A stretch of 64,000 bases of DNA. Origin: Rhizobium ecuadorense (GTDB lineage Bacteria; Pseudomonadota; Alphaproteobacteria; Rhizobiales; Rhizobiaceae). The translations under genes and the position numbers were made by a program. This document shows positions 3,108-61,130 of the stretch, in pieces. The notes below the pieces were generated by a model. It was given only the letters and a program-made list of their open reading frames with translations, was not told where the DNA came from and made no database searches. The number at the start of each line of letters is the position of its first letter. The first letter of the stretch is position 1. Where the stretch lies: NCBI RefSeq assembly GCF_001187535.1, contig NZ_LFIO01001733.1:186001-250000 (forward strand), given 5' to 3'.

Positions 3108-3813
3108 GATCCGCCCTCCTGCGATGCTCGACCTCGGTCTCCAGCTTGCCGTCGACGAACCTGAGCAGCCGCTGCGCATAGGCGGCGATATCGGGCTCAT
3201 GCGTGACCATGACGATGGTGATGCCCTGCTCGCGGTTCAGCCGGGTCATCAGATCCATGATCTCGACGCTGGTTTTCGTGTCGAGATTGCCTGTGGGTTC
3301 GTCGGCCAGCAGCAGCGCCGGTTCAGTGACGATGGCGCGGGCGATGGCGACGCGCTGCTGCTGGCCGCCCGATAGTTCCTGGGTCTTGTGATGTTCGCGG
3401 CCGGAGAGGCCGACCAGCGCCAGGGCTTCGCGCGCCCGTTCGCGGCGCTCGCGCACCGCCATGCCGCGATAAATCAGCGGCAGTTCGACGTTCTCGACCG
3501 CTGACGTGCGCGACAGCAGGTTGAAGCCCTGGAAGACGAAGCCGAGCATATGGCGGCGCAACAGCGTCAGCTGGCTTCGGTCGAAGCCGCTGGTCGGAAT
3601 GCCTTCGAAGATGTAGTCGCCTGATGTCGGCACGTCGAGGCAGCCGAGGATGTTCATCGCCGTCGACTTGCCGGAGCCCGACGGCCCCATGATCGCGACG
3701 AATTCATGGGCGTTGATTGCAAGGTCGACATGGTCGAGCGCGCGGATCGCCGCCTCGCCCTCGCCGTAGACTTTCGAGACCTGCCTGAATTCGATGAGCG
3801 GCGGGCTTGCCAT
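3097..3813 (-). CDS. MacB/LolD-type ABC transporter ATP-binding protein
   Basis: 238-aa cytoplasmic ATPase that energises the adjacent permease. Walker [10 protein letters not shown] (43-51), signature [14 protein letters not shown], Walker B LLLADEP followed by TGNLDTKTS, the MacB/LolD subfamily hallmark. Middle gene of the efflux operon: adaptor, then ATPase 12 bp downstream, then permease overlapping its end. Confidence 0.93.
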
Positions 3814-3825
3814 CCGTCCCTCCGC

Positions 3826-5121
3826 CTAATTCGCGCGCGTCGTGGCGTCGGTCACCAATGCGTCACCTTCCTTGAGGTCACCGGAGACGACCTGGGTGAA
3901 CTGGCCGTCGGATGAGCCGACCTGGATGACGACGGGTGTGGGCCGGTCGCCGCGCAGCACCCAGACGCGGCGCTCGGCGCCCGTCAGCGCCTGGCCGGAA
4001 TTGCCGCCGCCGCGCTGGCGTGGCGGGCCGAAGATGCCGAAAATACCGCGGCCGCGCCGTCCCGCCTGCGGGGGCGCATAGCGCAGCGCCGTGTTCGGCA
4101 CCATCAGCGTATCCTTGACGGCCTCGACGGTGACGTCGGCGGTCGCCGTCATGCCGGGACGCAGCAGCAGGTCGGCATTGTCGACGGAGAGGACCGCCTT
4201 ATAGGTCACGACGTTGTTGACCACCTCAGAGGCGAAGCGGATCTGCTCGATCTCGGCGGGAAAACTCCGGTCGGGATAGGCGTCGACTGAAAATTTCGCC
4301 TTCTGGCCGACGGCGATCTGGCCGACATCGGCCTCATCGACATCGACCTGCAGCTCCATCTTCTTCAGGTCGCCGGCGATGGTGAACAGGATTGGCGCCG
4401 AAAGCGAGGCTGCGACGGTGGCGCCCGGATTGACGGCGCGGGTGAGGATCACGCCGTCGATCGGCGAGACGATCTTTGCCTTGGCGAGATTGACCTCGGC
4501 CAACTGCAGGTCGGCTTCCGAAGCGAGCACCTCGGCTTCGTTGATCTGTTTGGCGGCGACGGCGGAATCATATTTGTAGGTGGCGTCATCGAGGCTCTGC
4601 TGGGTGGAGACATTGCTCCTGACCAGGCTCTTCAGCCGCTCAAGCGAGGTGCTTGCCGACTGCAGATCGGCATTGGCCTTGGCGACATTCGCCTTGGCCG
4701 AATTCAGCTTGGCGCGCGAACTCTTCACATCGGCCTCGAGCTTGTTGGTGTCGAGCAGCGCCAGCACGTCGCCCGCTTTGATCGTGCTGTTGTAATCGAC
4801 ATTGACGTCGCGGACCGTGCCGGAAAGCTCGCTCGATATATCCACCTGCTCGGTCGGCTGCACCGAGCCGGTGGCGGTGACGAGCACCGTCAGATCGCCG
4901 CGTTTTGCCGGCTGGGTGGCATAGCTCACTTCGCTTTGCCCGCGGCCCATATAGAAATAGGCGGCGCCGGCTGCAGCAGCAACGAGGATCAACAGGATGA
5001 ACAGCCGCCCGCGCCAGCGGCTGCGCCTGCCCTGCCGTCCCGATGCGGCGAGCACCGCTGCAAGGTCGGACGCGCCGCCTGTCTCTGCCCCGGTCTTCTT
5101 GCCGGTTCCGGTATCGTTCAT
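3826..5121 (-). CDS. MacA-like periplasmic adaptor (HlyD/RND membrane fusion protein)
   Basis: 431-aa adaptor linking the inner-membrane MacB-type pump to an outer-membrane channel. A cytoplasmic tail of about 40 residues, one membrane helix (LFILLILVAAAAGAAYFYM), a lipoyl/barrel-sandwich half (VTATGSVQPTEQVDIS), an alpha-hairpin rich in Ala/Lys/Ser, the second lipoyl half (IVSPIDGVILTRAV) and a beta-barrel domain. A Gly/Arg-rich insert (RRGRGIFGIFGPPRQRGGG) near the C-terminus is unusual and probably a disordered loop. First gene of the operon. Confidence 0.9.
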   Translation of the reverse strand: MNDTGTGKKTGAETGGASDLAAVLAASGRQGRRSRWRGRLFILLILVAAAAGAAYFYMGRGQSEVSYATQPAKRGDLTVLVTATGSVQPTEQVDISSELSGTVRDVNVDYNSTIKAGDVLALLDTNKLEADVKSSRAKLNSAKANVAKANADLQSASTSLERLKSLVRSNVSTQQSLDDATYKYDSAVAAKQINEAEVLASEADLQLAEVNLAKAKIVSPIDGVILTRAVNPGATVAASLSAPILFTIAGDLKKMELQVDVDEADVGQIAVGQKAKFSVDAYPDRSFPAEIEQIRFASEVVNNVVTYKAVLSVDNADLLLRPGMTATADVTVEAVKDTLMVPNTALRYAPPQAGRRGRGIFGIFGPPRQRGGGNSGQALTGAERRVWVLRGDRPTPVVIQVGSSDGQFTQVVSGDLKEGDALVTDATTRAN

Positions 5122-5278
5122 GTCATCCTCGATCAGTCAGTGCCTGCCTTGACCCGCAGTAAAATAATCACAGCGCAGATGAACCGGGCATTAGCGTTGC
5201 CGCCGAAGTGGCACGGAATTGCGGATGGGGGAAATGAAATATTGGTAAGAAAAGTCAAGTTTTGGTGCGGGACACTCG

Positions 5279-6197: not shown

Positions 6198-6245
6198 TTT
6201 CCCCTCGAGGTCGACGTGGCCTCGTTCAAACCGAAGGAGAACCGG

Positions 6246-6428
6246 ATGGCAAACCAAGGTGGAACCCATGAACAGCACGTCAAAGCCGGGCAGCAGAGTC
6301 ACAAGAACGACGCCAATGCCCGCAGCTCCTCTTCAGGTGGCCGCGACGCGCAGTCCAGCGGATCCCGCGGCGGCAGCCATGAACAGCATGTAAAAGCTGG
6401 TCAACAGAGCCACAAGAACAGCCACTAA
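6246..6428 (+). CDS. KGG/con-10-like small stress protein with duplicated motif
   Basis: 60-aa very hydrophilic protein. The start MANQGGTHEQH follows AAGGAG; an upstream in-frame start at 6171 would begin before the promoter's expected transcript start. The 15-residue unit THEQHVKAGQQSHKN recurs near the end as SHEQHVKAGQQSHKN, joined by a Ser/Gly linker. Related con-10/KGG proteins accumulate in stressed or stationary cells; their biochemical role is unknown. Monocistronic, with an EcfG promoter upstream and a strong terminator downstream. Confidence 0.85.
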   Translation: MANQGGTHEQHVKAGQQSHKNDANARSSSSGGRDAQSSGSRGGSHEQHVKAGQQSHKNSH

Positions 6429-6451
6429 AGCTGTCTTGATATGAAAATTCG

Positions 6452-6483
6452 GCCCGCGCCTCCATTCCGGCGCGGGCTTTTTT
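6452..6483 (+). terminator. Rho-independent terminator after KGG gene
   Basis: A perfect 9-bp GC stem (GCCCGCGCC/GGCGCGGGC), an 8-nt loop, then six T residues. Confidence 0.9.
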
Positions 6484-6490
6484 CGGCTTC

Positions 6491-7570
6491 TCAAGACAGA
6501 CGCCGGCCATCCTCGCCGAAGAGGTGCAGCACGGCGGGATCGAGATGGAGCGGCAGGCTGTCGCCAGATTTCATCCGTTGCTGGCCGGCAAAGACGGCGA
6601 TCAGCTTCTTGCCCGATGCGTCGGCGTGGACCACGGTCTCCGAGCCCAGTTCCTCGACGAGGAGGATGCGGGTATCCAGCTTGCGAGCGTCAGTCCCATC
6701 GGCAAGGGTGATGTGCTGCGGGCGAATGCCGATGCTGACCCTCTCGCCGATCGGGCGTGAATCCCGGGCAATAACGGAAAGACGATGGCCGCCGACGGTT
6801 TCGACCTCGGTGAGATCGCCGTCATGGCCGATAATCGCGCCTTCCAGGAAATTCATATGCGGGGCGCCGATGAAGCCGGCGACGAAGCGGTTGGCCGGCC
6901 TGTTGTAAAGTTCCAGCGGCGTTCCCACCTGCTCGATCCGGCCGCCTCTCAGCACCACGATGCGGTTTGCCAGCGTCATCGCCTCGACCTGATCATGGGT
7001 GACGTAGATCATCGTCGCCTTCAGGCGGGCGTGAAGGGCGGCGAGTTCGGCGCGCATGCTCACTCTCAACTCTGCGTCGAGATTGGACAATGGCTCGTCG
7101 AGCAGGAAGGCATCCGGGCGGCGGACAATGGCGCGGCCGATCGCGACGCGCTGGCGCTGGCCGCCGGAGAGCTGGCCGGGACGGCGCTGCAGGAAGGGCT
7201 CGATCTCCAGCATGCGGGCGGCGTCGGTGATGCGCGCTTCGATCTCGGCCTTGGCCACTTTGGTATTCTCGAGCCCAAAGGCCAGGTTTTCCCTGACGCT
7301 CATATGCGGATAAAGCGCATAGGACTGGAAGACCATGGCGAGGCCGCGGTCGGCGGCGCCGATCTCGGTGACATCCTTGCCGTCGATGGCGATGCTGCCG
7401 CCTGTCGGCTTGTCGAGGCCGGCGATCAGGCGCAGCAGCGTCGACTTCCCGCAGCCGGACGGACCGACGAAGGCGACGAACTCGCCGTCCTCGACCTCAA
7501 GCGAGACATCGCGGATGACCTCGACGGCGCCGAAATTCTTGACGATGTTCCTGAGCTCGAGCCCGCTCAT
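6491..7570 (-). CDS. Carbohydrate ABC importer ATPase (MalK/UgpC type)
   Basis: 359-aa cytoplasmic ATPase. Walker [10 protein letters not shown] (36-44), signature [14 protein letters not shown], Walker [12 protein letters not shown], and a C-terminal TOBE/OB domain (IGIRPQHITL) of the MalK group. The start MSGLELRNIV follows CAGGAGAG; the frame extends upstream but without homology. Last gene of the sugar operon binding protein - permease - permease - ATPase. Confidence 0.92.
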   Translation of the reverse strand: MSGLELRNIVKNFGAVEVIRDVSLEVEDGEFVAFVGPSGCGKSTLLRLIAGLDKPTGGSIAIDGKDVTEIGAADRGLAMVFQSYALYPHMSVRENLAFGLENTKVAKAEIEARITDAARMLEIEPFLQRRPGQLSGGQRQRVAIGRAIVRRPDAFLLDEPLSNLDAELRVSMRAELAALHARLKATMIYVTHDQVEAMTLANRIVVLRGGRIEQVGTPLELYNRPANRFVAGFIGAPHMNFLEGAIIGHDGDLTEVETVGGHRLSVIARDSRPIGERVSIGIRPQHITLADGTDARKLDTRILLVEELGSETVVHADASGKKLIAVFAGQQRMKSGDSLPLHLDPAVLHLFGEDGRRLS

Positions 7571-46557: not shown

Positions 46558-47289
46558 ATGGAACGTCTTGGCGTGCATAAAGCGACTGAATCCAGGAAGC
46601 GGGCTGCAGAAGCCGATCACTCCGGTTCTGCCCGGGATGTTTCAGTTGTCAAAGTCGGCGACTGCCTGCTGGGGTACAAGGCGGCGCAGCGTCGTGCGCG
46701 AGGCGGCCACTGGAACCATTTCCGCGGCCGGATGCGCGAGATCGAAAAATTGATCCGGCATCGCCATGGCGACATCGTACCCGAGGCGGACGACGCATTG
46801 ATCTATGTCGAGGTGATCGCCAGCCTCGCCCTTGTCGAATTCGGACAAGACTTCGTCGACGTGGTTCTCGGCTGGGCGGCGCGATGGCTTCCCTGGGCTG
46901 GGAAAGCCGACGTGGAGGAGATCATCTACGAGCGGACGAAGGTGCGTTTTTCCGCCTTGTCGGCCGACGCGCTCGGCCATGCGCTGCATGTGAGCTACGC
47001 CGAACGGTGCGCCCTCGATATCCGCACGATCGGCGCCTTCGATGTGCCGAAGGCGAAAAGAGCAAGGCTTCAAAAGGAAAAGCGGCGCCAGCGCAACCGA
47101 AGCCGGAAAGAGGAGCAACGCCGCGCCGCCGGCGCGCTTCCCAGAGCCGACTATCTCGCCAATTCCTTCAGCCAGGCCCGCCCCTGGGACGCTTTCGGCA
47201 TCAGCCGCCGGACATGGGAGCGCCGCGGCAAACCCATGCCGGGGGCCGAGGCGATATCGGATTGCGGTTCGATGCCGCTGGCCGCTTAG
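46558..47289 (+). CDS. Hypothetical protein, mobile-element type C-terminus
   Basis: 243 aa, unrecognised overall. The middle is helical (EIIYERTKVRFSALSADALG). The C-terminus has a highly basic segment (KRARLQKEKRRQRNRSRKEE) then DYLANSFSQARPWDAFGISR and RTWERRGK, an HTH-like ending I associate with phage- and plasmid-borne proteins. Convergent with the broken monooxygenase, overlapping by 4 bp. May be residue of an old insertion. Confidence 0.55.
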   Translation: MERLGVHKATESRKRAAEADHSGSARDVSVVKVGDCLLGYKAAQRRARGGHWNHFRGRMREIEKLIRHRHGDIVPEADDALIYVEVIASLALVEFGQDFVDVVLGWAARWLPWAGKADVEEIIYERTKVRFSALSADALGHALHVSYAERCALDIRTIGAFDVPKAKRARLQKEKRRQRNRSRKEEQRRAAGALPRADYLANSFSQARPWDAFGISRRTWERRGKPMPGAEAISDCGSMPLAA

Positions 47290-48801
47290 GCCGGAGTCTT
47301 TTCGGCATTGGCCGGTGGTCCGAACCAGGTCGTCATCGCCTCGTGGAGACCATCCGGCTTGCCCTCGCCCACCCACGCCACATAGCCGTCGGGCCGGATC
47401 AGCACTGCGGTTGGGGCGGAGACCGCGCCCAGCACCGGCAGCTCCCATGCGCCGTCATAGCTGGCGTCAACCAACTGGACGCGGGCTGACCATGGCGTGA
47501 TGTCGAGGCTGCCGGGTGCGCCGAGATTCAACAGCGCTGGCCGCGCATTTTGGAGCAGCACATAGACGCGGAGCGGGCCATCGGGCGTGGTGAGGTCGAG
47601 GTCGGGCATGCGGCGGCCGCGCAGCGGATGCCCCTCGCCGAACTCGTAATGGATGGCCAGTCCGGACATTTCGGCGGCGATCTTTTTGCGGGGCTCGTCG
47701 ATCGCGAGGAGTTCCAGGACGATCTCCCGCAAGGCTTCGGTGCGGTCATCGGTCCGTTGCAAGGCGACCTGCGCCATCGTCGCGCGCAGCACGCGGGCGG
47801 CCACCGGATGCCGCTCGGCGTGATAGGTGTCGAGCAAGCTTTCCGGCGATATTCCTTTCACCACCTGCGCCAGCTTCCAGCCGAGATTGACGGCATCCTG
47901 CACGCCGGTGTTGAGGCCCTGCCCGCCCACCGGAGAATGCACATGCGCGGCATCGCCGGCCAGGAAGATGCGGCCGTTGCGGTAAGCCGCCGCCTGCCGC
48001 GACATCGGTGAACCTGGAAATCCACCTTAAGCTGTGGATTCCAAAATCCGTTCCGCATGACTCGATCAGGGTTTGCCTGAGGTCGCCGAGCGTCGGTTCG
48101 CTTGTAGTAGCGCCGGCAGTCTTTTCCGTCACCATGACGTTGATCGGACCTTCACTGGCAAAGACGACCTTGCCGTCGCGGATTTCATATTCCTCGCGGC
48201 CGAAGGCATGCATGCCGAGCGCCGTGCGATGGACGCCGAGCGGCGGCTCCTCCTCCATCTCGGCCTCGGCCAGAATATTGCTGGTCGTCGCATCCCATCC
48301 CGGAAATTCAATGCCCGCGATCTTGCGAACCAGACTGCGGCCGCCATCGCAGCCGACGAGGTAGCCTGCCCTGAGCTGGAAACCATCGGAGAGTTCAATG
48401 GTGACGCCGGTATCGTCCTGCGCAAATCCGGTCAGCTCGCGGCCACGATAGATCGTCACCGGCAGTTCGCCGACCCATCCGGCCAGAATGCGCTCGATAT
48501 GCTTCTGCCGCAGCGCCAGCCCGTAATTGTGCCGTGTCGGAAAATCGCTGATATCGAGCCGCGTGACGGCAAACCCGGTGACCTGGGCGATCTGCCCTGC
48601 CGCGAGAAACCGGTCGACCACGCCCCGCTGATCGAGAACCTCGAGCGTGCGCGCGCTCAGCCCACCGGCGCGCGAACCGACGACTTCCTGGTTCGGCCGG
48701 CGCTCGACGAGCGCGACATCGACACCTGCCAGAGCCAATTCGCCCGCCAGCATCAGCCCCGTCGGCCCTCCTCCGGCAATCACGACGGCATGTTCTCTCA
48801 T
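47286..48801 (-). pseudogene. FAD-dependent aromatic monooxygenase, frameshifted
   Basis: N-terminal part from MREHAVVIAGGGPTGLMLAG (ribosome site GAGGAG) runs in one frame to SLRWISRFTD at about 48004, then the C-terminal part continues in the next frame as SRQAAAYRNGRIFLAGDAAH to the end. Removing one G after the GAT codon restores a continuous protein of about 500 aa. All family motifs are otherwise intact, so this is a recent one-base insertion (or a two-base loss) or a sequencing error. Confidence 0.85.
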
Positions 48802-49132
48802 CTGCAAACTCCTCAGTTCCGAGGCCGATATCTCAGAACTCCAAGAAACGCCCAACCACTGCGGAGCGCCAAATTGACCCGGCCTGCCGGGTGACGATTT
48901 TGCCTGTCGCAGGTTGTTCTCCCTATAAATAGAGATCTCTACTGGTTGGAAGGACTTGCGACAGGAATTTCCGCCTTGCTTTTCGAAGCCATATTGATTG
49001 CCGCTTGCTGCTTTCCTGCCGGAGAATCCAGGCTTTTCAACACGACCTGACCGGGTGGGCGCGGATGCGGCAAGCGCTTCCCGGAATCACCCTTCGTGCT
49101 CGAAAGCGATCATTCGAATATTTGCTACAGCC
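48802..49132. other. Monooxygenase promoter region
   Basis: No gene seen. TAGAGATCTCTA (48930-48941) is a perfect 12-bp palindrome in an A/T-rich patch, suited to a TetR- or MarR-type regulator of the monooxygenase; no regulator gene is adjacent. Confidence 0.5.
48930..48941. promoter_or_regulatory. Perfect palindrome, candidate operator
   Basis: TAGAGATCTCTA, 129 bp upstream of the broken monooxygenase start. Confidence 0.4.
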
Positions 49133-50098: not shown

Positions 50099-50259
50099 CA
50101 ACGAGCCGCGCTCGACCGGCGACCTGCGCGTGGTGAAAGAGATTCTGCAGCGGATCGAGGCGACGCAGAAGCGGTCGACCAACTAAAACGGCCGTGTGAC
50201 GCGTGTGACTTTTTTGCGGTCACAAATCTCACAAATTTTCCGGTAAATTATTGATTTTA

Positions 50260-50305
50260 TGGTGAGAGCGTCGGGGTTCGAACCCGAGACCTACTGATTA
50301 AAAGT
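50260..50305. other. Attachment site (att), distal copy of tRNA-Lys 3' half
   Basis: 46 bases (TGGTGAGAGCGTCGGGG to GATTAAAAGT) identical to 61055-61100, the CCA-to-anticodon-loop part of the tRNA-Lys gene. After one mismatch a further AGTTGC also matches. It marks the left boundary of the integrated element. Confidence 0.92.
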
Positions 50306-50436
50306 AAGTTGCAGACCAGATTCTAGCGCCAACAGTCACCAGCATGACAGCTCCATACATTCATAAATACGGCAAGTTTTACAGTTATTTAGACCATCAC
50401 TAATAAACACTCGCCAACACTTGCAATCCCTCTTAT

Positions 50437-50491: not shown

Positions 50492-51781
50492 ATGACAAGG
50501 GCGAAGAGCGCATTTACATCAAAATGGGTCGATTCCGTCCAGGCGACGGACAAGCGGCAAGAGATACCCGACCCCAGCTTGAGGGGGTTCTACCTCATCA
50601 TCCAGCCGGCTCCGGGGGCGGCGAAGAGTTGGGCTGTGCGCTACAAAGGCAAGCCTAAATTTACGATCGGCAGCGTCGCGGCGTGGAGCCTCGCGGATGC
50701 CCGTAAGGAAGCTGGGCGCGTCATGCGCGCCCTTGACGAGGGCCGTGATCCGCACGCCGAAAAAAAGGAGGCGACCAGCGATGATAATCTCACCGAGAAT
50801 GTGCTCGACGAATTTCTGAAACGACACGTCAAGGCGAAGAACAACGGTCGCACCGCCTACGATGTAGAGAATACGATCAGGCGGGAGATCAAGCCGAAAA
50901 TGAAAGGGAAGATGATCACGGCTATCCGCCGCCGTGATGTCATCAGTCTGCTGGACGACATGGTTGACCGCGGCGTGCCGACCATGGCGGTGAGGACCTA
51001 TGCGCTGCTTAAGAAATTTTTCAATTGGTGCATTGAACGGGGAATTCTCGAAGTTTCGCCTATGGGCGGTCTGAAGCCTCCCGCGACAGTGGAAGCCCGT
51101 GACCGGGTTCTTTCTGACACGGAGCTTCGCTGGGCATGGCTCGCGGCGGACGAGATCGGATGGCCTTTCGGGCCTCTATTCAAAATGTTGGCAGTGACGG
51201 CCCAGCGCAAGGAGGAAGTAGCAGGAGCATCCCGCTCAGAATTCGACTTGAAAGCCAGAGACCCCGTGTGGGTTATCCCGCCAGCGAGGGCTAAGAACGG
51301 CCGCGAGCATCTTGTGCCGGTCACGCCGCTGGCGATCAGTCTTATCGAGTCGCTGCCTGTTATCAATGCGTCAGATCTCCTCTTTACTACCAACGGCGAA
51401 ACGACCGTGGGCGGCTTTTCCAAGGCCAAGGAACGACTAGATGCCGCGATGTTGAAGATCGCTCGCAGAGAGGCACAGGAACGGTGCAACGATCCGGAGG
51501 AAGTCAAGATCGCACCGTGGGTATTGCATGATTTCAGGCGAACGGCGGCAAGCGGTATGGCTGCACAAGGGGTTCAACCCCATGTCATTGAGGCCGTGCT
51601 GAATCATAAGAGCGGCGCGATCAAAGGCGTCGCAGCAGTATACAATCGCTACGACTATGATCGCGAGAAAAAACAGGCCCTGACAGGTTGGGAGAGACAC
51701 GTCAGGTCGATCATCGCCGCCGAACCGGGTTCTAATGTCATTTCGTTCGGCAAGGTAACCTTGCGGGAGACCGGCGAATAA
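50492..51781 (+). CDS. int: Tyrosine recombinase / integrase (P4-type, DUF4102)
   Basis: 429 aa. N-terminal DUF4102 arm-binding domain (LRGFYLIIQPAPGAAKSWAV), SAM-like core-binding domain, then the catalytic domain with AVTAQRKEEVAGASRSEF (first Arg), VLHDFRRTAASGMA (HxxR), VLNHKSG (His) and the nucleophile tyrosine in VYNRYDYDREK. It should integrate and excise the element at the tRNA-Lys att site. Ribosome site GAGGGGTGG. Confidence 0.95.
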   Translation: MTRAKSAFTSKWVDSVQATDKRQEIPDPSLRGFYLIIQPAPGAAKSWAVRYKGKPKFTIGSVAAWSLADARKEAGRVMRALDEGRDPHAEKKEATSDDNLTENVLDEFLKRHVKAKNNGRTAYDVENTIRREIKPKMKGKMITAIRRRDVISLLDDMVDRGVPTMAVRTYALLKKFFNWCIERGILEVSPMGGLKPPATVEARDRVLSDTELRWAWLAADEIGWPFGPLFKMLAVTAQRKEEVAGASRSEFDLKARDPVWVIPPARAKNGREHLVPVTPLAISLIESLPVINASDLLFTTNGETTVGGFSKAKERLDAAMLKIARREAQERCNDPEEVKIAPWVLHDFRRTAASGMAAQGVQPHVIEAVLNHKSGAIKGVAAVYNRYDYDREKKQALTGWERHVRSIIAAEPGSNVISFGKVTLRETGE

Positions 51782-51884: not shown

Positions 51885-52033
51885 AGGTAAATAAAATTAC
51901 TGGATGTAAATACTGTTTGCATTGAGCGCAGGTGTTGTCGTTTGATGGGAGTTGATTTGGTTCGGTAGTGGCCTTGGAAGGTCGCCTGGAGTGCCAAGCC
52001 GAAGAGGTTCCTAACGACAGAGAAGGCACGCTC

Positions 52034-52297
52034 ATGGCCAAGAAATTTATTACCAGGGCGCAAGTCAGGAAGCGCTACGGCGGCATCTCCGACATGACGA
52101 TCACGAGATGGCTTAGGGCCGGTCGCATTCCAGAACCGGCGCTGATCGCCAATCGACATTATTTTGACGAGGACGAGCTTGATGAGGCTGATCGCCGGGC
52201 GAAGTCCGACTACCGGCGCACACGGGCTGAACCGCCGAAGCACGTGCCGCCGCAGCTCAAGGCTGCTGAGGAAGAGAGCGCGCCGGGTGACTCATGA
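52034..52297 (+). CDS. AlpA/excisionase-like HTH protein
   Basis: 87 aa from MAKKFITRAQVRKRYGG (AGAAGG upstream). MerR-like winged HTH (YGGISDMTITRWLRAGRIPE) then a linker (RHYFDEDELDEADRR). Small proteins of this type act as recombination directionality factors or as activators of the element; located right after the integrase. Confidence 0.75.
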   Translation: MAKKFITRAQVRKRYGGISDMTITRWLRAGRIPEPALIANRHYFDEDELDEADRRAKSDYRRTRAEPPKHVPPQLKAAEEESAPGDS

Positions 52298-52653
52298 AGC
52301 AACAAATACGGCGAAGGCCGCTCGCTGGTGCAGCGTGCGGCCTTCAAAAAGATGTCTTACCACGGCAGCGGTTGGACAGCGAGGAGCCTACTCCTCCATC
52401 GCCTGAAGTTCAACGGCTCGACCGTGTCCGCCGCCACAAATGGCTGCTCGCGCACATCCGCTCGTCCCGCGGCGATTTCACACGCGAAGTGGAATCCCGA
52501 CGCCGGTTGCTGTCATCGCTCGAACCGCCGCCCGATGGTCCGTTTCTGGTTTCGATCGAAGCGGCGTGGCAGCGGTTGTATGCCGATTACGCGCGACATC
52601 GAAGGATGACTCCTTACCCCGTCAGGAAGGGGAGCGAGCGACGTGGCAGATGA
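52294..52653 (+). CDS. Hypothetical element protein
   Basis: 119 aa, very basic, unrecognised. Overlaps the previous stop (ATGA) and the next start by 11 bp, so it belongs to the early operon. Confidence 0.55.
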   Translation: MKQQIRRRPLAGAACGLQKDVLPRQRLDSEEPTPPSPEVQRLDRVRRHKWLLAHIRSSRGDFTREVESRRRLLSSLEPPPDGPFLVSIEAAWQRLYADYARHRRMTPYPVRKGSERRGR

Positions 52654-53806
52654 ATTCTGGCCGGAGTTCCCGGATGATCCTCCCGAGGTCGGGTCACGAG
52701 AGCAGCCTCGGAGGCGAGGAAACGGCGACAGTAACCGCGATTTCGGGCCGAGGCCGGACGCAGTGCCGCTAGGATACGGTAAGGGCCGCAGGCGGCGGGA
52801 GCGTCCCTATCAGGGCCTCGTCACCACGCAACAATTCATGGGACGCATGCGGCCGCCGGATTACTTGATCGACGGTCTTCTGCTGCGGGGTTCCACTTAT
52901 ACCTTGACCGGCCCTACCGGCCACGGAAAGACGCTCGTGGCGCTCCTGATGGCCATCCGGATTTCGCGCGGGGAATGGTTCTGCGGGCGCAAATGCCGCA
53001 AAGGTCCGGTAGCGTTCTTCGCTGCCGAAAACCCGGACAACGTGCGGATTCAATTTTTCGCCTTGTGTGCGGAAATGGGCATAGAGCCGGAAACCGTCGA
53101 TATCCGTTGGCATGACGGTCTGTTTGCATTGGATACCGCCGTCGCCGCCGTGCGTTCCGATCTGGCACGATGCCCCGACCTCGCCTTCTGCGCCTTCGAT
53201 TCACTTCAAGCGTTTTTTCAGGGTGACGATGATAATGCGAACATGGCGATGCTCGACCTTGCGCTCGATTTCCGCGACCTGACGGCGGCGCATCCCAACA
53301 GACCAGCCTCTCTGATTATCGCCCATCCGATTAAGAATGCTTCGAAGGGTAATCTCCTGCCGCGCGGCGGCTCGGCCATCACCAACGAGCTGGACGGCAA
53401 TCTGACTTGTTGGGCCGACAACGGCATTGTCGAGCTTCATAATCACGGAAAGTTCCGGGGCGTCCCTTTCGACCCGATCAAGCTGGAACTATCGGTTGTC
53501 CGGCCGGAAGGTCTGCTGGATGCGCGCGGCGATCAGATGGGATGCACCATCATTCGTCCCCTGCCAGAAGGCCGCGAAAGTGAAATCTTGCGGCAGGCCG
53601 GCAATAGGGAGGTCGCCATTCTCGAAGCGATCAAGCAGAGCCCTGGTATCAACCAAACCGCGCTGGCTTCGCTTCTGAACGTGGGCCGCGCGACGATCCA
53701 GCGAGACCTTGATGCGCTGACCAAGAAGAAATGGATTCGCGATTACAGCGGCAGAAAAAAAATCTTGGCCGAAGGCGAACGCGCTTTGGAGATGGCCAGA
53801 AAATGA
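52643..53806 (+). CDS. RepA-like AAA ATPase with C-terminal HTH
   Basis: 387 aa. Walker A in LTGPTGHGKTLVALLMAIR, Walker B-like FCAFDSLQAF, and AHPIKNASKGNLLPRGGSAI as in the RSF1010 RepA/AAA_25 hexameric helicases. The C-terminal 70 residues form a winged helix (INQTALASLLNVGRATIQRD). It probably unwinds or initiates replication of the excised element, next to the repeat-rich DNA directly downstream. Confidence 0.82.
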   Translation: MADEFWPEFPDDPPEVGSREQPRRRGNGDSNRDFGPRPDAVPLGYGKGRRRRERPYQGLVTTQQFMGRMRPPDYLIDGLLLRGSTYTLTGPTGHGKTLVALLMAIRISRGEWFCGRKCRKGPVAFFAAENPDNVRIQFFALCAEMGIEPETVDIRWHDGLFALDTAVAAVRSDLARCPDLAFCAFDSLQAFFQGDDDNANMAMLDLALDFRDLTAAHPNRPASLIIAHPIKNASKGNLLPRGGSAITNELDGNLTCWADNGIVELHNHGKFRGVPFDPIKLELSVVRPEGLLDARGDQMGCTIIRPLPEGRESEILRQAGNREVAILEAIKQSPGINQTALASLLNVGRATIQRDLDALTKKKWIRDYSGRKKILAEGERALEMARK

Positions 53807-54860: not shown

Positions 54861-55213
54861 AAGACGAGGCCATCATCGTTCAACAGATCGTCAGGATTGA
54901 GCGAGCCGTTAACCGCATCGAGGCGAAGCTCGACCGGGTGCTTGCGACGGGTGATCGTCAGATGCAGAGCACCGACCAGCGCGATCCGGTCGCAGCGTTG
55001 CGGGCCGTCTGCCACGAACGCGCCATCGTCCTAACCGGCGACGGCCGGATCGGAGAGTATGACGCCGCCATGCTTCTCGGAAGGTCGCCCACGACCCTCA
55101 GAAATTGGCGATTTGGTGAGCGCCCTATACCACACAACAAGCTCGGCGGCAGGATCATGTACCGCCTCGAAGACCTCGCTGCTTTCCTGAATGGCGGACA
55201 GAACGACGACTGA
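54857..55213 (+). CDS. Small HTH-type element protein
   Basis: 118 aa. N-terminal coiled coil (QQIVRIERAVNRIEAKLDRV), C-terminal HTH (YDAAMLLGRSPTTLRNWRFG then RIMYRLEDLAAFLN), like excisionase-family DNA-binding modules. Start overlaps the previous stop by 4 bp. Confidence 0.65.
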   Translation: MKDEAIIVQQIVRIERAVNRIEAKLDRVLATGDRQMQSTDQRDPVAALRAVCHERAIVLTGDGRIGEYDAAMLLGRSPTTLRNWRFGERPIPHNKLGGRIMYRLEDLAAFLNGGQNDD

Positions 55214-56318
55214 CCACCCGAAACCGCCCGAAACGGACTTACCGCAGATGCAGTCGAGCGCGATACTCGCAGTGAAGATCAGCAGGAGTTTTGCCGCTAT
55301 GTCCGCCGTTTCGCTCGCGCCGAGGGGTTCAACGTTCGTCAGATGTGCAATGGCGCTAGCCCTCGCCAAAGGTGATATGGTTCACGCGGCCGAGATTGCA
55401 GCCGGGCGATGGGGTCTTATGTCGCCCGCCGCGCGCGTCGCGAAAGCGGCTGTTGAGGCTGGCCAGCTGGGTGGCGGCTCCGGCACCTGGGGAAGCGAAC
55501 TCGCAGGTGATCTCGCGACCGCCACCGTCGAATTCTTCCAACTCGTGGCCGAGCGTTCCATCGTCGGGCGGATGGCCGGCCTGCGGCGAATGCCGTTGTT
55601 GACGAGATCGATCTCAGTCATCGGCGGTTCCACCGCGCATTGGGTCGGCGAAGGTAAGCCCAAGCCGGTTAGCGCCTTGGTGTTCGGCGACGCGCGGCTG
55701 CCGTCTCGGAAGGTGATCGCACTCTGTGTCGTCACGCGCGAGCTGCTAGAAAGTAGCGATCCGGCGGCTGAAGGCGTGATCAAAACTGATCTAGTCCGCG
55801 CCGTGGTGGATGCACTCGACGTCGCGTTTATTGATCCGGCGAACGCTGGCATCAGCGATGTGATGCCTGCTTCGATCACCAACGGTCTTATACCGTCCGC
55901 CGATTTGGAGGCGCTGGTCTCGGACTTCGCCGGCGACCTTGGTAGCGCCGTGCTTGTGATGAACCCGGCAACAGCGGTTTCGCTTTCGAGCGCCGACCGT
56001 CCGAACATCGGTGCCCGAGGCGGCGAGCTTTCCGGCGTGCCGGTCGTTACGTCCCGTAACGTAGCCGAAGGCAATATCGTGTTGGCCGATCCGACCGGCA
56101 TTGCCCTCGGTGAAGGCTCTGCCGATCTGCGCGTGACCACTGAGGCGACGGTTGAAATGCTGGATAGCGGCCTGACGCAGGACGCCACCGACGGCACCGG
56201 AACGTCTCTCGTCTCGCTGTGGCAGACCAACGCGGCGGGACTCCTCGCCGAACGGGCAATGAACTGGGCCGTCGCACGCCCCGGCAGCGTCGGTTACGTC
56301 GCCGCCGGCGGTAGTTGA
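55191..56318 (+). CDS. HK97-type phage major capsid protein
   Basis: 375 aa (an internal start at 55248 is possible). The HK97 fold signature is plain: GGSTAHWVGEGKPKPVSAL, KVIALCVVTRELLESSDPAA, DLVRAVVDALDVAFIDPANA, and a C-terminal GIALGEGSADLRVTTEATVE strand pair. It starts inside the end of the upstream gene. No portal, protease or large terminase accompanies it. Confidence 0.88.
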   Translation: MADRTTTDHPKPPETDLPQMQSSAILAVKISRSFAAMSAVSLAPRGSTFVRCAMALALAKGDMVHAAEIAAGRWGLMSPAARVAKAAVEAGQLGGGSGTWGSELAGDLATATVEFFQLVAERSIVGRMAGLRRMPLLTRSISVIGGSTAHWVGEGKPKPVSALVFGDARLPSRKVIALCVVTRELLESSDPAAEGVIKTDLVRAVVDALDVAFIDPANAGISDVMPASITNGLIPSADLEALVSDFAGDLGSAVLVMNPATAVSLSSADRPNIGARGGELSGVPVVTSRNVAEGNIVLADPTGIALGEGSADLRVTTEATVEMLDSGLTQDATDGTGTSLVSLWQTNAAGLLAERAMNWAVARPGSVGYVAAGGS

Positions 56319-57092: not shown

Positions 57093-57407
57093 ATGAAACT
57101 CCCGAATCAAACCTCCGGCCGACCCCGGCATCACCCCACGGACATGCAACGTCGTCTGGTCCAGGTACTTGCCGGTCAGGCCGTTCCGCAGCCGGAAATC
57201 TGCCGCATCCTCGCCGTCAGCCCAAAGACGTTGCGGAAGCGTTATCGCCGGGAGCTGGACGTCGGTGCCGCAAAGCTCCAAGCCGCTCTTATCGGCCATC
57301 TGCTCGGCCTTGCCGCAGGCGACGACGAGGTGGCATTAAGGGCCATCATCTTCCTTCTTCGATGCCGGTTCGGGTGGTCGCGCTTTGCACCACCGCCATG
57401 CGGCTGA
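57093..57407 (+). CDS. HTH protein, small-terminase-like
   Basis: 104 aa. VPQPEICRILAVSPKTLRKR is a helix-turn-helix, followed by DVGAAKLQAALIGHLLGLAA, as in phage DNA-packaging small subunits and related regulators. It could target packaging of the element's DNA. No clear ribosome site; convergent with the cargo cassette. Confidence 0.6.
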   Translation: MKLPNQTSGRPRHHPTDMQRRLVQVLAGQAVPQPEICRILAVSPKTLRKRYRRELDVGAAKLQAALIGHLLGLAAGDDEVALRAIIFLLRCRFGWSRFAPPPCG

Positions 57408-57431
57408 CAGACCGGAAGCGCGTGCACGCGG

Positions 57432-57929
57432 CTATTCGTGAACCATTCCCAAAGACACGATCGCTCCGTCGAATAGTTCAAATAGCGTCGATTGAATCTC
57501 CAGTATCTCCTCGTCGGAACGTTCCTTAGCGCTCACTGCGATTGCATGAGCGGGATTATCCGGAAAAGGCGGCGCATCGAGAACCGGATCATCGACCACG
57601 CAAAGAAGCCGGTCTTCCACTTCATCTCGTAGTGACCGCAGTTCTAAGGCGCTCCGAATGAGTAAACCACTGGGGCTTTCCCCTTCCTTCTGCCTAGCGA
57701 TTTTGTGAGATATGTCAGTAATCGCGACTTCCTGCATATGGTCGACGCGCATTAGGGAGAGGCCAGAACTCTTGATATGTGACAGAGGAAAGACACCGGG
57801 CTTCAGGCCGCCGTCTTTTCGAAAGTGATTGGGGCTTGTGACCAGCCGAGCGAGCCGCTCATCGTCGGATACTGGCCCTAAATCACCATGGCTTTCCGCC
57901 TCACATGCACAATATTGCGCACCGTCCAT
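57432..57929 (-). CDS. Cargo gene 3: unrecognised protein
   Basis: 165 aa from the ATG at 57929 (GTG at 57932 adds one residue). Visible: SDDERLARLVTSPNHFRKDG, PLSHIKSSGLSLMRVDHM and a regularly charged C-terminus (ILEIQSTLFELFD). The pattern D-E-R-L-A-R ... F-x-P ... L-S-x-x-R recurs in proteins I associate with TIGR04255 neighbourhoods, but no enzyme motif is seen. Last gene of the minus-strand cassette. Confidence 0.6.
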   Translation of the reverse strand: MDGAQYCACEAESHGDLGPVSDDERLARLVTSPNHFRKDGGLKPGVFPLSHIKSSGLSLMRVDHMQEVAITDISHKIARQKEGESPSGLLIRSALELRSLRDEVEDRLLCVVDDPVLDAPPFPDNPAHAIAVSAKERSDEEILEIQSTLFELFDGAIVSLGMVHE

Positions 57930-57935
57930 CACCGC

Positions 57936-58550
57936 TTATGCAACCCTAATAAAGTCGATAAGCTCCTGCGGAACGGAGTTGTCGAGAACGCCTACGCCCT
58001 TAATCTTGGAACCGTCCTGCTTGTTCTTCGCATAGTAGGCAAATTTACCCGGCCGAGTGAAAGACACAGTGGCGTAGATGCTGGCTGTGTTCCAAAACCA
58101 GCTCACCGATCCGTCTGCAGACACAGATGGTTCCGGTGCCAACAGTTCGAGAGGAAACGCGCGCAAGAAGCCAATAGCCGATTCAATAACCGGAGGGCGA
58201 GGTGCAACGCTCCCGATACCGTCCCATCCCGATGCCAAGTTCTGATATCGGAGCATTTCGCTGATCGCTTCTTGAAATGCGAGAGGCACCGCGACAGCCA
58301 ATCGATCAATCGGAAAGCGGCTTGCGGTTTCCGCATAATTGGGAGCTGTAAGCGTTTGCGCCGAAAATTCATTTGTTAGCGCTAGGAAAGCAGCGGCGGC
58401 CGTAAAACCCGTAAACATCAGGCTCATAGCCCGACCCGACCTAACACCAGTCATAGAAGCAACGTTGCCCGTAGTCTCCGAATGGATGGACGCCGCAAGT
58501 TGGGATTGCGAACGCCCCCCCAGGGCAGATGTCGAGGTGTCAAGCCACAT
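57936..58550 (-). CDS. Cargo gene 2: hypothetical protein with central WDG motif
   Basis: 204 aa. A hydrophobic stretch near residue 40-60 (AMSLMFTGFTAAAAFLAL) may anchor it in the membrane. The conserved core is NLASGWDGIGSVAPRPPVIE with a beta-rich C-terminus (GSVSWFWNTASIYATVSF). Overlaps the TIGR04255 gene by 11 bp and is followed after 3 bp by gene 3. Function unknown. Confidence 0.65.
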   Translation of the reverse strand: MWLDTSTSALGGRSQSQLAASIHSETTGNVASMTGVRSGRAMSLMFTGFTAAAAFLALTNEFSAQTLTAPNYAETASRFPIDRLAVAVPLAFQEAISEMLRYQNLASGWDGIGSVAPRPPVIESAIGFLRAFPLELLAPEPSVSADGSVSWFWNTASIYATVSFTRPGKFAYYAKNKQDGSKIKGVGVLDNSVPQELIDFIRVA

Positions 58551-59340
58551 TGAGATTTATCCTCGTCGCCATCTCATCAGTTATGAATGAGGCAAGCAAT
58601 ATTTTATTCTTGTCGTGCATACTAGCAAAAGTTGATTCGATCCACCCTCCAGAAATAGCCTCAGTTGGTGTATAAAAAGTTGCTAGTTGGTGCTGCATGT
58701 AGGTATCGAATTTCACAATTGGAATGCCTTCGTCGTCTTGAACCGCATCAATGTGCACTCTCGACAACACCCGACCATTATCTGCTGGCTCAAACCAGCC
58801 CTGATGAAGGTGCCAGAACGGTCCTTTATCAAATAAAACGGGGGGCACGTTCTGACCGGGTTTCATCACCTGTCTTGCGTTATACTCGGATACATCAGAC
58901 GTCCATTTAAAGATATCGACATACTGGAGAGTCGCGCTCGACACCAAAGCATCAGCTGCACCGGCCACACCGATCACGTCTTGCATATATTTCGCAGCGC
59001 GAGGCCAAATTTCTGCCCATCGAGTATATGACAGGCAGTTCACGAAAATATTATTCTGATCGACCAGGACTCTCCAATCTAGCGATCCATCAGTCTTGAT
59101 GCGCTCGAAGGAAACGCCACCGGCGATGCCGCCAAACTGAATACCGTCAGCAAACTGAAGGTTGTTCCCAATCATGAAGGGGAAACCAGGTGTTCGGTTA
59201 AGTCGTGGCAGGTCTGCCTTCCATTTCGAGTGACTCCTCGCGACACGCTCTATTTCAGGCGCAGCGAACGGCCGGGAAAAACTCAGACCAAATACGACTT
59301 CGGCGATTGCATGATCGCCACTCACAGGATCGAATGCCAC
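58540..59340 (-). CDS. Cargo gene 1: TIGR04255 family protein
   Basis: 266 aa, GTG start behind AAGGGGAGCGC. AIAEVVFGLSFSRPFAAPEI opens the family, which is described as sporadically distributed with no known function. No catalytic motif is seen. The AT-richer composition differs from the structural genes, a sign of separate acquisition. First of three tightly packed minus-strand genes in the element's variable zone, where satellites usually carry anti-phage systems. Confidence 0.75.
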   Translation of the reverse strand: MAFDPVSGDHAIAEVVFGLSFSRPFAAPEIERVARSHSKWKADLPRLNRTPGFPFMIGNNLQFADGIQFGGIAGGVSFERIKTDGSLDWRVLVDQNNIFVNCLSYTRWAEIWPRAAKYMQDVIGVAGAADALVSSATLQYVDIFKWTSDVSEYNARQVMKPGQNVPPVLFDKGPFWHLHQGWFEPADNGRVLSRVHIDAVQDDEGIPIVKFDTYMQHQLATFYTPTEAISGGWIESTFASMHDKNKILLASFITDEMATRINLNVA

Positions 59341-59357
59341 AGCGCTCCCCTTAACGG

Positions 59358-59543
59358 TTGCGTCCTCATAAATCCGACTTGCACGAATGTCATGAAGAAT
59401 TTTCTAATTTCAAGCTTGCGTCGAAATGGATAAGGCAGGTCGGTCGACTGACGCAACCGCCGGTTTGGTTTCCCAACGCAAACCAGAGGCTTGCGGATGA
59501 GTACGACGCCGCGCAGCGATCAGGACAAAAACCGAATCGTTAG
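59358..59543 (+). CDS. Doubtful small frame
   Basis: 61 codons from a TTG. The end RLADEYDAAQRSGQKPNR looks protein-like but there is no ribosome site; perhaps the tail of a lost gene. Confidence 0.25.
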   Translation: MRPHKSDLHECHEEFSNFKLASKWIRQVGRLTQPPVWFPNANQRLADEYDAAQRSGQKPNR

Positions 59544-59736
59544 GGATTTACGCCCGACCGTCCTTTTATGCGATGAGCGCCCCATCAACCCCGGCAGAAG
59601 TCCGGGAACCGATCGAGGCATCTGGTGGCGGACGGCAGGCCCGTAGGTCGGAATGGACGGTATACCTCTTTCGGACAGATATTCGCCTTGCGCCAACGCG
59701 GTTACAATCTCCGCGCGACATGGCGGAGACGGGGGC

Positions 59737-60054
59737 ATGCGTCCGGGTTATCGCAATCCACAGAAGCGATCGGTGCTTCTCAAGTTTCCGGGTTTGGTCA
59801 TCGGCGCGGTCGCGTTTGGTGCGGCCGGCGGCTGGACCGCGAGCGACTTGCTGGCCTCATGGAGCGCTGCTGGCGGCTCCGGACAATCGTGCACGATCAA
59901 GGGCAATATCAGCATCAACACCGGCGAGCGCATCTTCCACGTGCCGGGCCAGCGACGCTACGCAGAGACGAGAATCAGCCCTCGGTATGGAGAACGGTGG
60001 TTCTGCTCGGAAGCTGAAGCCTGGGCGGCCGGCTGGCGGAAATCGAAATCGTGA
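59737..60054 (+). CDS. Membrane-anchored sunset-type domain protein
   Basis: 105 aa from MRPGYRNPQKRSV (GGAG upstream). One membrane helix (FPGLVIGAVAFGAAGGW), then a conserved secreted module: CTIKGNISINTGERIFHVPG, RYAETRISPRYGERWFCSEA, EAWAAGWRK, with two Cys. This module is found in many exported bacterial proteins and phage-borne genes; role unknown. It would face the periplasm. Confidence 0.65.
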   Translation: MRPGYRNPQKRSVLLKFPGLVIGAVAFGAAGGWTASDLLASWSAAGGSGQSCTIKGNISINTGERIFHVPGQRRYAETRISPRYGERWFCSEAEAWAAGWRKSKS

Positions 60055-60076
60055 TGCTTTCTTCACGCCACGCCCG

Positions 60077-60424: not shown

Positions 60425-60925
60425 TCAACGGCGGGTAGCTAGCCGCCAGAGTTCAGCGAGATCGTCAAGACCCATGCGGAGCATATCCGCCGCTGTCAGC
60501 CGTTCTCGTTTTCCTTCGAAGATTTCAGTTAGGGCAAATCCCTCGCCGCAGACGGCGGACACGAGACCATAAAGACGGACGCCCAGAAGCTCCCGGCACT
60601 TCGCGAGTTCCTTGCCGGCATTGACCTCCCTCTCGGTGATCAGGTCGCGCCCCTTGCCGCCGTCGACATGTTCCTTGCCGTAATCAATAGCGCCGGCTCC
60701 CTTGCCGCCCATTGATTCCCACAGCGCCCGAAAGCGAGTCGCGGCGGCGACCTGAGCAGCATCGAGAACACCTCTCGCCGCCATCGTCGTGATCGCCGAT
60801 TCGCGGACGTTTATCATCGCGACGACGTCGCGAGGGTTCGTCGCATCCGGCGGATGGGAGCGGGAATGATAGGGATTCTCCACGAGGACGGGGCGGAGCT
60901 TTAATTTCTTGGATGGCGCGGGCAT
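60425..60925 (-). CDS. Conserved phage/island regulatory-type protein
   Basis: 166 aa. NPRDVVAMINVRESAITTMA, then AATRFRALWESMGGKGAGAI and ERLTAADMLRMGLDDLAELW are a pattern seen in proteins of rhizobial prophages and islands. Probably DNA-binding, at the right end of the element and reading inward. Confidence 0.65.
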   Translation of the reverse strand: MPAPSKKLKLRPVLVENPYHSRSHPPDATNPRDVVAMINVRESAITTMAARGVLDAAQVAAATRFRALWESMGGKGAGAIDYGKEHVDGGKGRDLITEREVNAGKELAKCRELLGVRLYGLVSAVCGEGFALTEIFEGKRERLTAADMLRMGLDDLAELWRLATRR

Positions 60926-60990: not shown

Positions 60991-61054
60991 CCGATTCACC
61001 GGAGCGTCCGTTCCGTGTTCGAAACTACATGCACTTGTTTTTATTGGATGTTTT

Positions 61055-61100
61055 TGGTGAGAGCGTCGGGGTTCGAACCCGAGACCTACTGATTAAAAGT
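61055..61100. other. Attachment site (att) within tRNA-Lys
   Basis: Identical to 50260-50305 over 46 bases; right boundary of the integrated element. Confidence 0.92.
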
Positions 61101-61130
61101 CAGTTGCTCTACCGGCTGAGCTACGCTCTC
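61055..61130 (-). tRNA. tRNA-Lys (anticodon TTT)
   Basis: 76 nt with CCA encoded. Acceptor GAGAGCG pairs CGCTCTC; D-arm TAGCTCAGCCGGTAGAGC; anticodon loop CTTTTAA gives TTT; T-arm GGGTTCGAACCCC. Its 3' part (61055-61100) is the attachment site of the element, which restores the gene on insertion. Confidence 0.97.

Follow-up and report, generated by a model that had tools for sequence, protein, structure and literature searches.

ABC-3C systems are three-component conflict systems with an ABC ATPase component, and capsid-forming satellites carry head, portal and terminase genes of their own. The TIGR04255 protein family has so far been a name without a function, and a literature search by the name 'TIGR04255' found no mention of it. 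The P4-like and other satellites with defence cargo treated in the excerpted text of PMC10121019 share with the element analysed here an integrase, an AlpA-like regulator, a primase-like gene, insertion at a tRNA gene and a cargo slot. The gene trio that occupies this slot, located in a 64,000-nt stretch of the Rhizobium ecuadorense genome (the window), is not named in the excerpts covered from the literature on satellites, three-component systems and defence prediction. We propose, with moderate confidence, that the trio is a conflict system of three components, mobile and modular, most likely directed against phages via abortive infection and carried as cargo of a satellite-like element (Table 1).

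Genes A, B and C lie tightly packed on the minus strand, with an overlap of 11 bp between A and B (58540-58550) and a gap of 3 bp between B and C (57933-57935). This layout, and the lengths of A and B, had been given in an earlier note on this DNA and were confirmed; the 165 aa given there for C is corrected by the ORF (Table 1). Gene calls throughout are longest ORFs, a crude set with some antisense ORFs among them. The trio was also found to be AT-rich, as had been claimed relative to the structural genes, with 51.8% GC compared with 60.0% in the element backbone and 61.6% in the window. The TIGR04255 model of NCBIfam aligned to A over model positions 4-252 of 252, with 56.5 bits at a cut-off of 30. 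None of the three window proteins generated a match in Pfam, in PHROG or, at E 0.01, to any family in PADLOC-DB 2023, and B and C matched no NCBIfam model. A sigma-70 scan found no promoter-like site in the conserved segment upstream of A.

Table 1. Features of the cassette and its carrier element, in window coordinates.
Feature	Coordinates	Strand	Details
Left attachment repeat (copy of tRNA-Lys 3′ part)	50256..50312		57-nt direct repeat, 96% identical to 61051-61107
Tyrosine integrase of element	50492..51781	+	phrog_1 integrase, E 1.3e-55
AlpA/excisionase-like regulator	51968..52297	+	phrog_66, E 1.6e-8
Primase/helicase-like ATPase	52643..53806	+	phrog_906, E 1.2e-13
Major-head-like protein	55191..56318	+	phrog_617, E 1.4e-45
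Small HTH-like protein directly before cargo	57093..57407	+	phrog_12540, E 1.4e-16; HTH_23 below its cut-off
Gene C, candidate effector	57432..57932	-	166 aa, start GTG; family in 17/19 loci; model pLDDT 92.9
Gene B, 'WDGxG' protein	57936..58550	-	204 aa, start ATG; ORF; family in 17/19 loci
Gene A, TIGR04255 family	58540..59340	-	266 aa, start GTG; NCBIfam E 3.5e-15; model pLDDT 91.2
Conserved upstream segment, possible promoter region	59341..59437	-	in block common to window and G463; 27 nt identical
Element protein at tRNA end, weakly DUF6456-like, conserved small gene	60425..60925	-	phrog_21451, E 1.1e-61; DUF6456 below its cut-off
Right attachment repeat inside tRNA-Lys	61051..61107		direct repeat
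tRNA-Lys (ttt), insertion target	61055..61130	-	ARAGORN

The carrier is a 10.8-kb integrative element bounded by the tRNA-Lys direct repeat, and the integrase, regulator and replication gene between its attachment repeats correspond to a phage-satellite gene set. Among the nine backbone proteins scanned against PHROG, no portal was found, and the only terminase signal was a weak small-terminase match (phrog_57, E 0.0013) generated by the AlpA-like gene. We know of no helper for this element. Across the genus, 17 of 148 genomes have the head-like protein, mostly in diverged form. A sibling element in genome G406 (L159), which possesses the same head-like, HTH and end genes, lies at a tRNA-Ser between 33-nt repeats (88% identical) located 10.2 kb apart, and carries two other ORFs (272 and 483 aa, L159:9544-11992) in the place of the trio. 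Thus, the trio is the occupant of a cargo slot, and the earlier description of the genes as mobile cargo is upheld by both the tRNA-bounded element and the different content of the same slot in the sibling. The 483-aa protein of the sibling appeared HEPN-like by eye but generated no match in Pfam, PADLOC, PHROG or PDB sequences. In the comparison with plasmids, the element matched 48 records, none above 80%, and the 20 listed cover 4% of the element, at about 59634-60060. This segment, beside the trio in the element, shows approximately 86% identity to genes on rhizobial plasmids, for which succinoglycan biosynthesis protein ExoI is a frequent annotation (ExoI or an unnamed annotation in most rows, among the 20 listed of 48). 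Elsewhere in the window, 47286-48855 contains two overlapping minus-strand ORFs that by eye correspond to one FAD monooxygenase in two frames, possibly frameshifted.

Within the genus, a search with the single sequence of B matched two of 148 genomes, and it missed the diverged B of genome G014 described below. Genome G463 carries the trio with gene lengths, overlap and gap identical to those in the window, and with protein identities of 85% for A, 78% for B and 84% for C; the recurrence of the same genes in the same layout in a second genome indicates that the trio is more than a chance arrangement. The only DNA common to the window element and G463 is 57431-59437 (79% identical), a block that takes in 97 bp upstream of A and the three genes through the C stop codon. 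In G463 the trio comes after genes that by eye resemble a shikimate/quinate-type cluster, of which one dehydroquinase was confirmed, and no satellite or structural genes were found in the 8 kb upstream; the contig stops about 150 bp past C, leaving only the upstream side visible. Genome G014 carries a diverged trio (L188:2629-4645) at the same gene 3′ end as the G463 copy, with identities over the aligned parts of 29% for A, 30% for B and 21% for C. Part of the gene end recurs 5.7 kb downstream in G014 (158 bp, 97.5%); this second copy touches an assembly gap (NN) that leaves its exact extent uncertain, and no integrase was seen between the two copies. L188 also contains an internal 404-bp repeat (4751-5154 and 6235-6638). 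The trio is absent from genomes G026 and G017 within about 4.5 kb beyond this gene, and further loci at the same gene end (L168-L187) showed no A within 1.5-kb flanks, which are too short even for the G014 trio. Among seven chosen genomes of the genus, TIGR04255 was detected in G014 and not in G026, G017, G032, G001, G469 or G406. This gene end is an exchange site, with diverged alleles in one place and empty relatives.

A search by pattern, based on the A proteins of the window clade, identified 15 loci in contigs of bacterial genomes (Proteobacteria and one Verrucomicrobiaceae), nearly all of them metagenome-assembled, and four loci in virus-catalogued contigs; further scans of viral contigs returned only contigs already found. 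B and C lie behind A on the same strand in 17 of these 19 relatives (13 of 15 in bacterial genomes and 4 of 4 in virus-catalogued contigs), the exceptions being L078 and L082. Some of the 19 loci coincide with loci found by other routes, L073 being the G463 copy. Profiles built by leaving out one locus per round (the window and L073 together, with other close relatives kept) detected B at 42.6 bits or more and C at 51 bits or more in all 17. The order kept in 17 of 19 loci, together with the one DNA block shared with G463, bears out the claim that the three genes form one unit.

In the wider samples, TIGR04255 was sporadic, occurring in 18 of 289 genomes of the class and 29 of 398 genomes of the phylum. 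Among 48 TIGR04255 loci from both samples, B was found in 19, C in 18, either in 24, both in 13 and neither in 24; this count omits L024, which was found with B, includes a doubtful 'B' tag in L062 that falls within the A region, and relies on profiles that include proteins from five of these genomes' loci. The C profile matched at least 11 of the 398 genomes and the B profile at least 20, with weaker matches to B within larger proteins elsewhere, both numbers being lower bounds with at most eight candidates scored per genome. In nine of the 11 C matches, B is located just upstream of C: A precedes B-C at six of these loci, an AAA_21 ATPase gene does so in G594, and G549 and G590 carry B-C alone. 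In G795, one of the nine, C was matched only in part, about 240 bp after B. The remaining two of the 11 C matches were weak (E 5e-4 and 0.008). Window A, B and C and two other C proteins had no match in 72,556 plasmid records, and A and two C proteins had none in 50,697 phage records, in a search that may have missed records from the window's own genome or very near ones.

Both A and the B-C pair were found with other partners. In G594 (L127:3853-6173), the AAA_21 ATPase gene is directly followed by B and C. Conversely, A precedes a second, HTH-like gene in L029/L005, L030/L006 and L032/L020, the product of which matched Pfam HTH_3 over the cut-off in L029 and below it in L030, and generated weak antitoxin-HTH matches in L032. 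A third protein of 272-291 aa follows in L029 and L032, and L049, L052 and L058 contain genes of sizes similar to those of such operons. L029:5368-7828 and L032:2949-5680 represent a second TIGR04255 operon type, whose third proteins share an 'SQTCD' stretch; neither matched NCBIfam, and that of L029 did not match Pfam. A is set apart from the gene for 221-233 aa that comes after it in L003/L027 and L004/L028. These downstream proteins (L027:6823-7488 and L028:6971-7672) have a 'GDGLTCATF' stretch in common; neither matched NCBIfam, and that of L028 did not match Pfam. The occurrence of A with other partners indicates that A and B-C are separable parts, and the exchange of partners, A with an HTH protein and third protein and B-C with an AAA_21 ATPase, supports modularity. 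Besides its trio, L087:3477-11155 contains a further gene that by eye resembles TIGR04255 (10433-11155) and another that resembles B (3477-4076). L082:2621-3519 and L066:544-1495 each carry an A relative, an unrelated second gene and a third gene of 113-125 aa. These third genes were read by eye as HEPN-like on the basis of the HEPN motif, a reading not confirmed by a PF05168 search of both genomes, which found nothing there; compared with sequences of solved structures, the L082 third protein matched designed TIM barrels only.

The small and tightly packed genes of the trio could also be a toxin-antitoxin-like addiction module, in which B-C or the whole trio would secure maintenance of the element with no direct phage role. 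This main rival, which we consider unlikely, fits the B-C pairs lacking A in G549 and G590 and the pairing of some A genes with an HTH protein, as in toxin-antitoxin regulation, whereas the conserved components number three and not two, single copies far from visible mobile elements would profit little from addiction, and the trio matched no toxin-antitoxin family in Pfam, NCBIfam or PADLOC.

The surroundings of the copies were surveyed in a set of 129 neighbour proteins from 26 loci, reduced from 174 proteins by leaving out L130, L131, L137, L084, L085, L127 and L025 entirely and 21 single ORFs. At E 1e-8, 88 PADLOC models were matched among the 129 neighbours, with one or two members in each of the 25 models listed, these being raw counts, not an enrichment. 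Three neighbours matched phage integrase, two matched phage tail hub, and many are metabolic genes. Two of the 129 matched Imm52 (PF15579, best E 6e-9), an immunity-protein family. In L132, the second gene downstream of C encodes an OLD-like ATPase. By eye, L088 and L138 lie beside phage-tail-looking genes and L089 beside an integrase, and the copies in L128, L129, L045 and L080 are found among housekeeping-looking genes (between them in L128 and L129). The neighbours vary from locus to locus, and the neighbour data as a whole indicate scattered and mobile copies that are not strongly tied to large defence islands. According to the excerpted text of the DefensePredictor study (PMC13092281), systems outside islands cannot be found by co-localisation. 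The earlier note had staked its proposal on frequent co-occurrence of the three genes and on neighbourhoods other than stable core ones: the co-occurrence was found, and the neighbourhoods are mixed, with several single copies among housekeeping-looking genes in different places.

Two further explanations were weighed. A satellite- or prophage-specific helper function, such as helper-phage interference or particle redirection, would suit a trio located within a satellite-like element with a head-like gene, as well as the tail-looking genes beside L088 and L138 and the two tail-hub matches; it is distinctly improbable in view of the G463 trio, which adjoins a metabolic gene with no structural genes in the 8 kb upstream, of the copies between housekeeping-like genes elsewhere, and of the window proteins unmatched in PHROG. 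An accessory metabolic or stress function, mobile by happenstance and unrelated to conflict, draws on the many metabolic neighbours and on a trio with no known function. We regard it as improbable, as the neighbours differ between loci, the distribution is sporadic (B in 2 of 148 genomes of the genus, TIGR04255 in 29 of 398 of the phylum) and one site holds diverged alleles. Taken together, the trio stays together as a block of about 2 kb that is common to unrelated sites, and these sites are changeable.

The predicted structures and conserved residues were then considered for each product. A and C were both predicted confidently (Table 1), and the strand order of the A model was read as two similar halves. 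Structural matches of A included guanidino kinases (Z up to 7.7), a rolling-circle initiator (7.5) and AdoMetDC (6.7), and structural Z values below 8, as here, may reflect a common arrangement only. Our interpretation of the model is that its strand and helix order approximates two TBP-like repeats; however, TATA-binding protein chains scored Z 6.0-6.6 over 142-163 residues with rmsd 4.7-5.8, not above unrelated folds, and the guanidino kinases, the rolling-circle initiator and AdoMetDC score equally or better. In Foldseek, the sole match of A with E below 0.001 was an AdoMetDC/prozyme chain, at TM 0.27. Profiles of A, B and C against sequences of solved structures generated nothing credible. 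In window B, the maximum 19-residue hydropathy is 1.64, at residue 41, and values of 1.51-1.62 at positions 40-51 were obtained for L073, L074, L075, L088 and L089. Most B proteins in the other 17 rows have no such N-terminal peak, the stretch being shared mainly by close relatives, and the hydropathy hints only weakly that B may be membrane-attached, as had been suggested.

For C, Glu25, Arg29, Ser59, Arg62, Arg99 and His129 are invariant in 18 sequences, and Arg29 and His129 alone in a wider set of 22. Foldseek gave no clear fold match for C (best E 1.8 in PDB and 0.95 in viral models), which is no proof of a new fold. The best structural match of C was 6ede (Z 4.1, rmsd 3.9, 94 residues), and this match, with the conserved Arg and His, recalls the Tpt1/KptA tRNA 2′-phosphotransferases and is taken as a lead only. 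The excerpted text of PMC6333775 divides Tpt1/KptA into lobes 1-85 and 86-182, the second being the NAD lobe, and places three of the four essential tetrad residues outside the NAD lobe. C differs in that its matched range, 87-181, would cover just the NAD lobe, provided that 6ede follows the residue numbering of the enzyme in the excerpted PMC6333775. Membership of C in Tpt1/KptA was rejected, as its hhalign comparison with a profile of five KptA proteins, a shallow one, gave a probability of 0.1%.

From the behaviour of the unit, the partner exchange and the residues conserved in C, we infer a defence role for the trio and a provisional division of labour. A, with its predicted two-repeat TBP/helix-grip-like fold, may sense or bind a trigger, perhaps nucleic acid or a phage protein. 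B might couple A to C, possibly with a membrane tether in the window clade. C, a compact domain with the six conserved residues above, could be an enzymatic effector. More tentatively, and as a possibility that we hold at less than even weight, the trio may represent a new modular class of three-component immunity, with a TIGR04255 sensor, a WDGxG coupler and a small enzyme effector of new fold, in which the sensor would be replaceable by an AAA_21 ATPase, and the effector pair swappable in other TIGR04255 operons, and which would spread by satellites, prophages and small insertions at gene ends. With TIGR04255 tied into a fixed unit of three genes alongside two unnamed partner families, its function becomes testable, and the natural exchange site and the partner swaps help to make it directly so. 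Should the trio serve in defence, C would act as an effector whose fold is not recognised, and the swappable first component would illustrate the recombining of sensors and effectors by bacteria.

Compared with known systems, window A falls over the cut-off of TIGR04255 and shares the sporadic occurrence of that family, while the family name is silent on function and A-B-C is just one of several gene settings. The window element differs from the P4-like satellites in the excerpted text of PMC10121019 in possessing a major-head-like gene, and its nine scanned backbone proteins include neither a portal nor a clear terminase. The window trio differs from ABC-3C in having no ATPase match, and in that B and C match neither Pfam nor NCBIfam; it resembles ABC-3C in its three-gene operons and exchangeable parts, and in G594 an AAA_21 ATPase precedes B-C.
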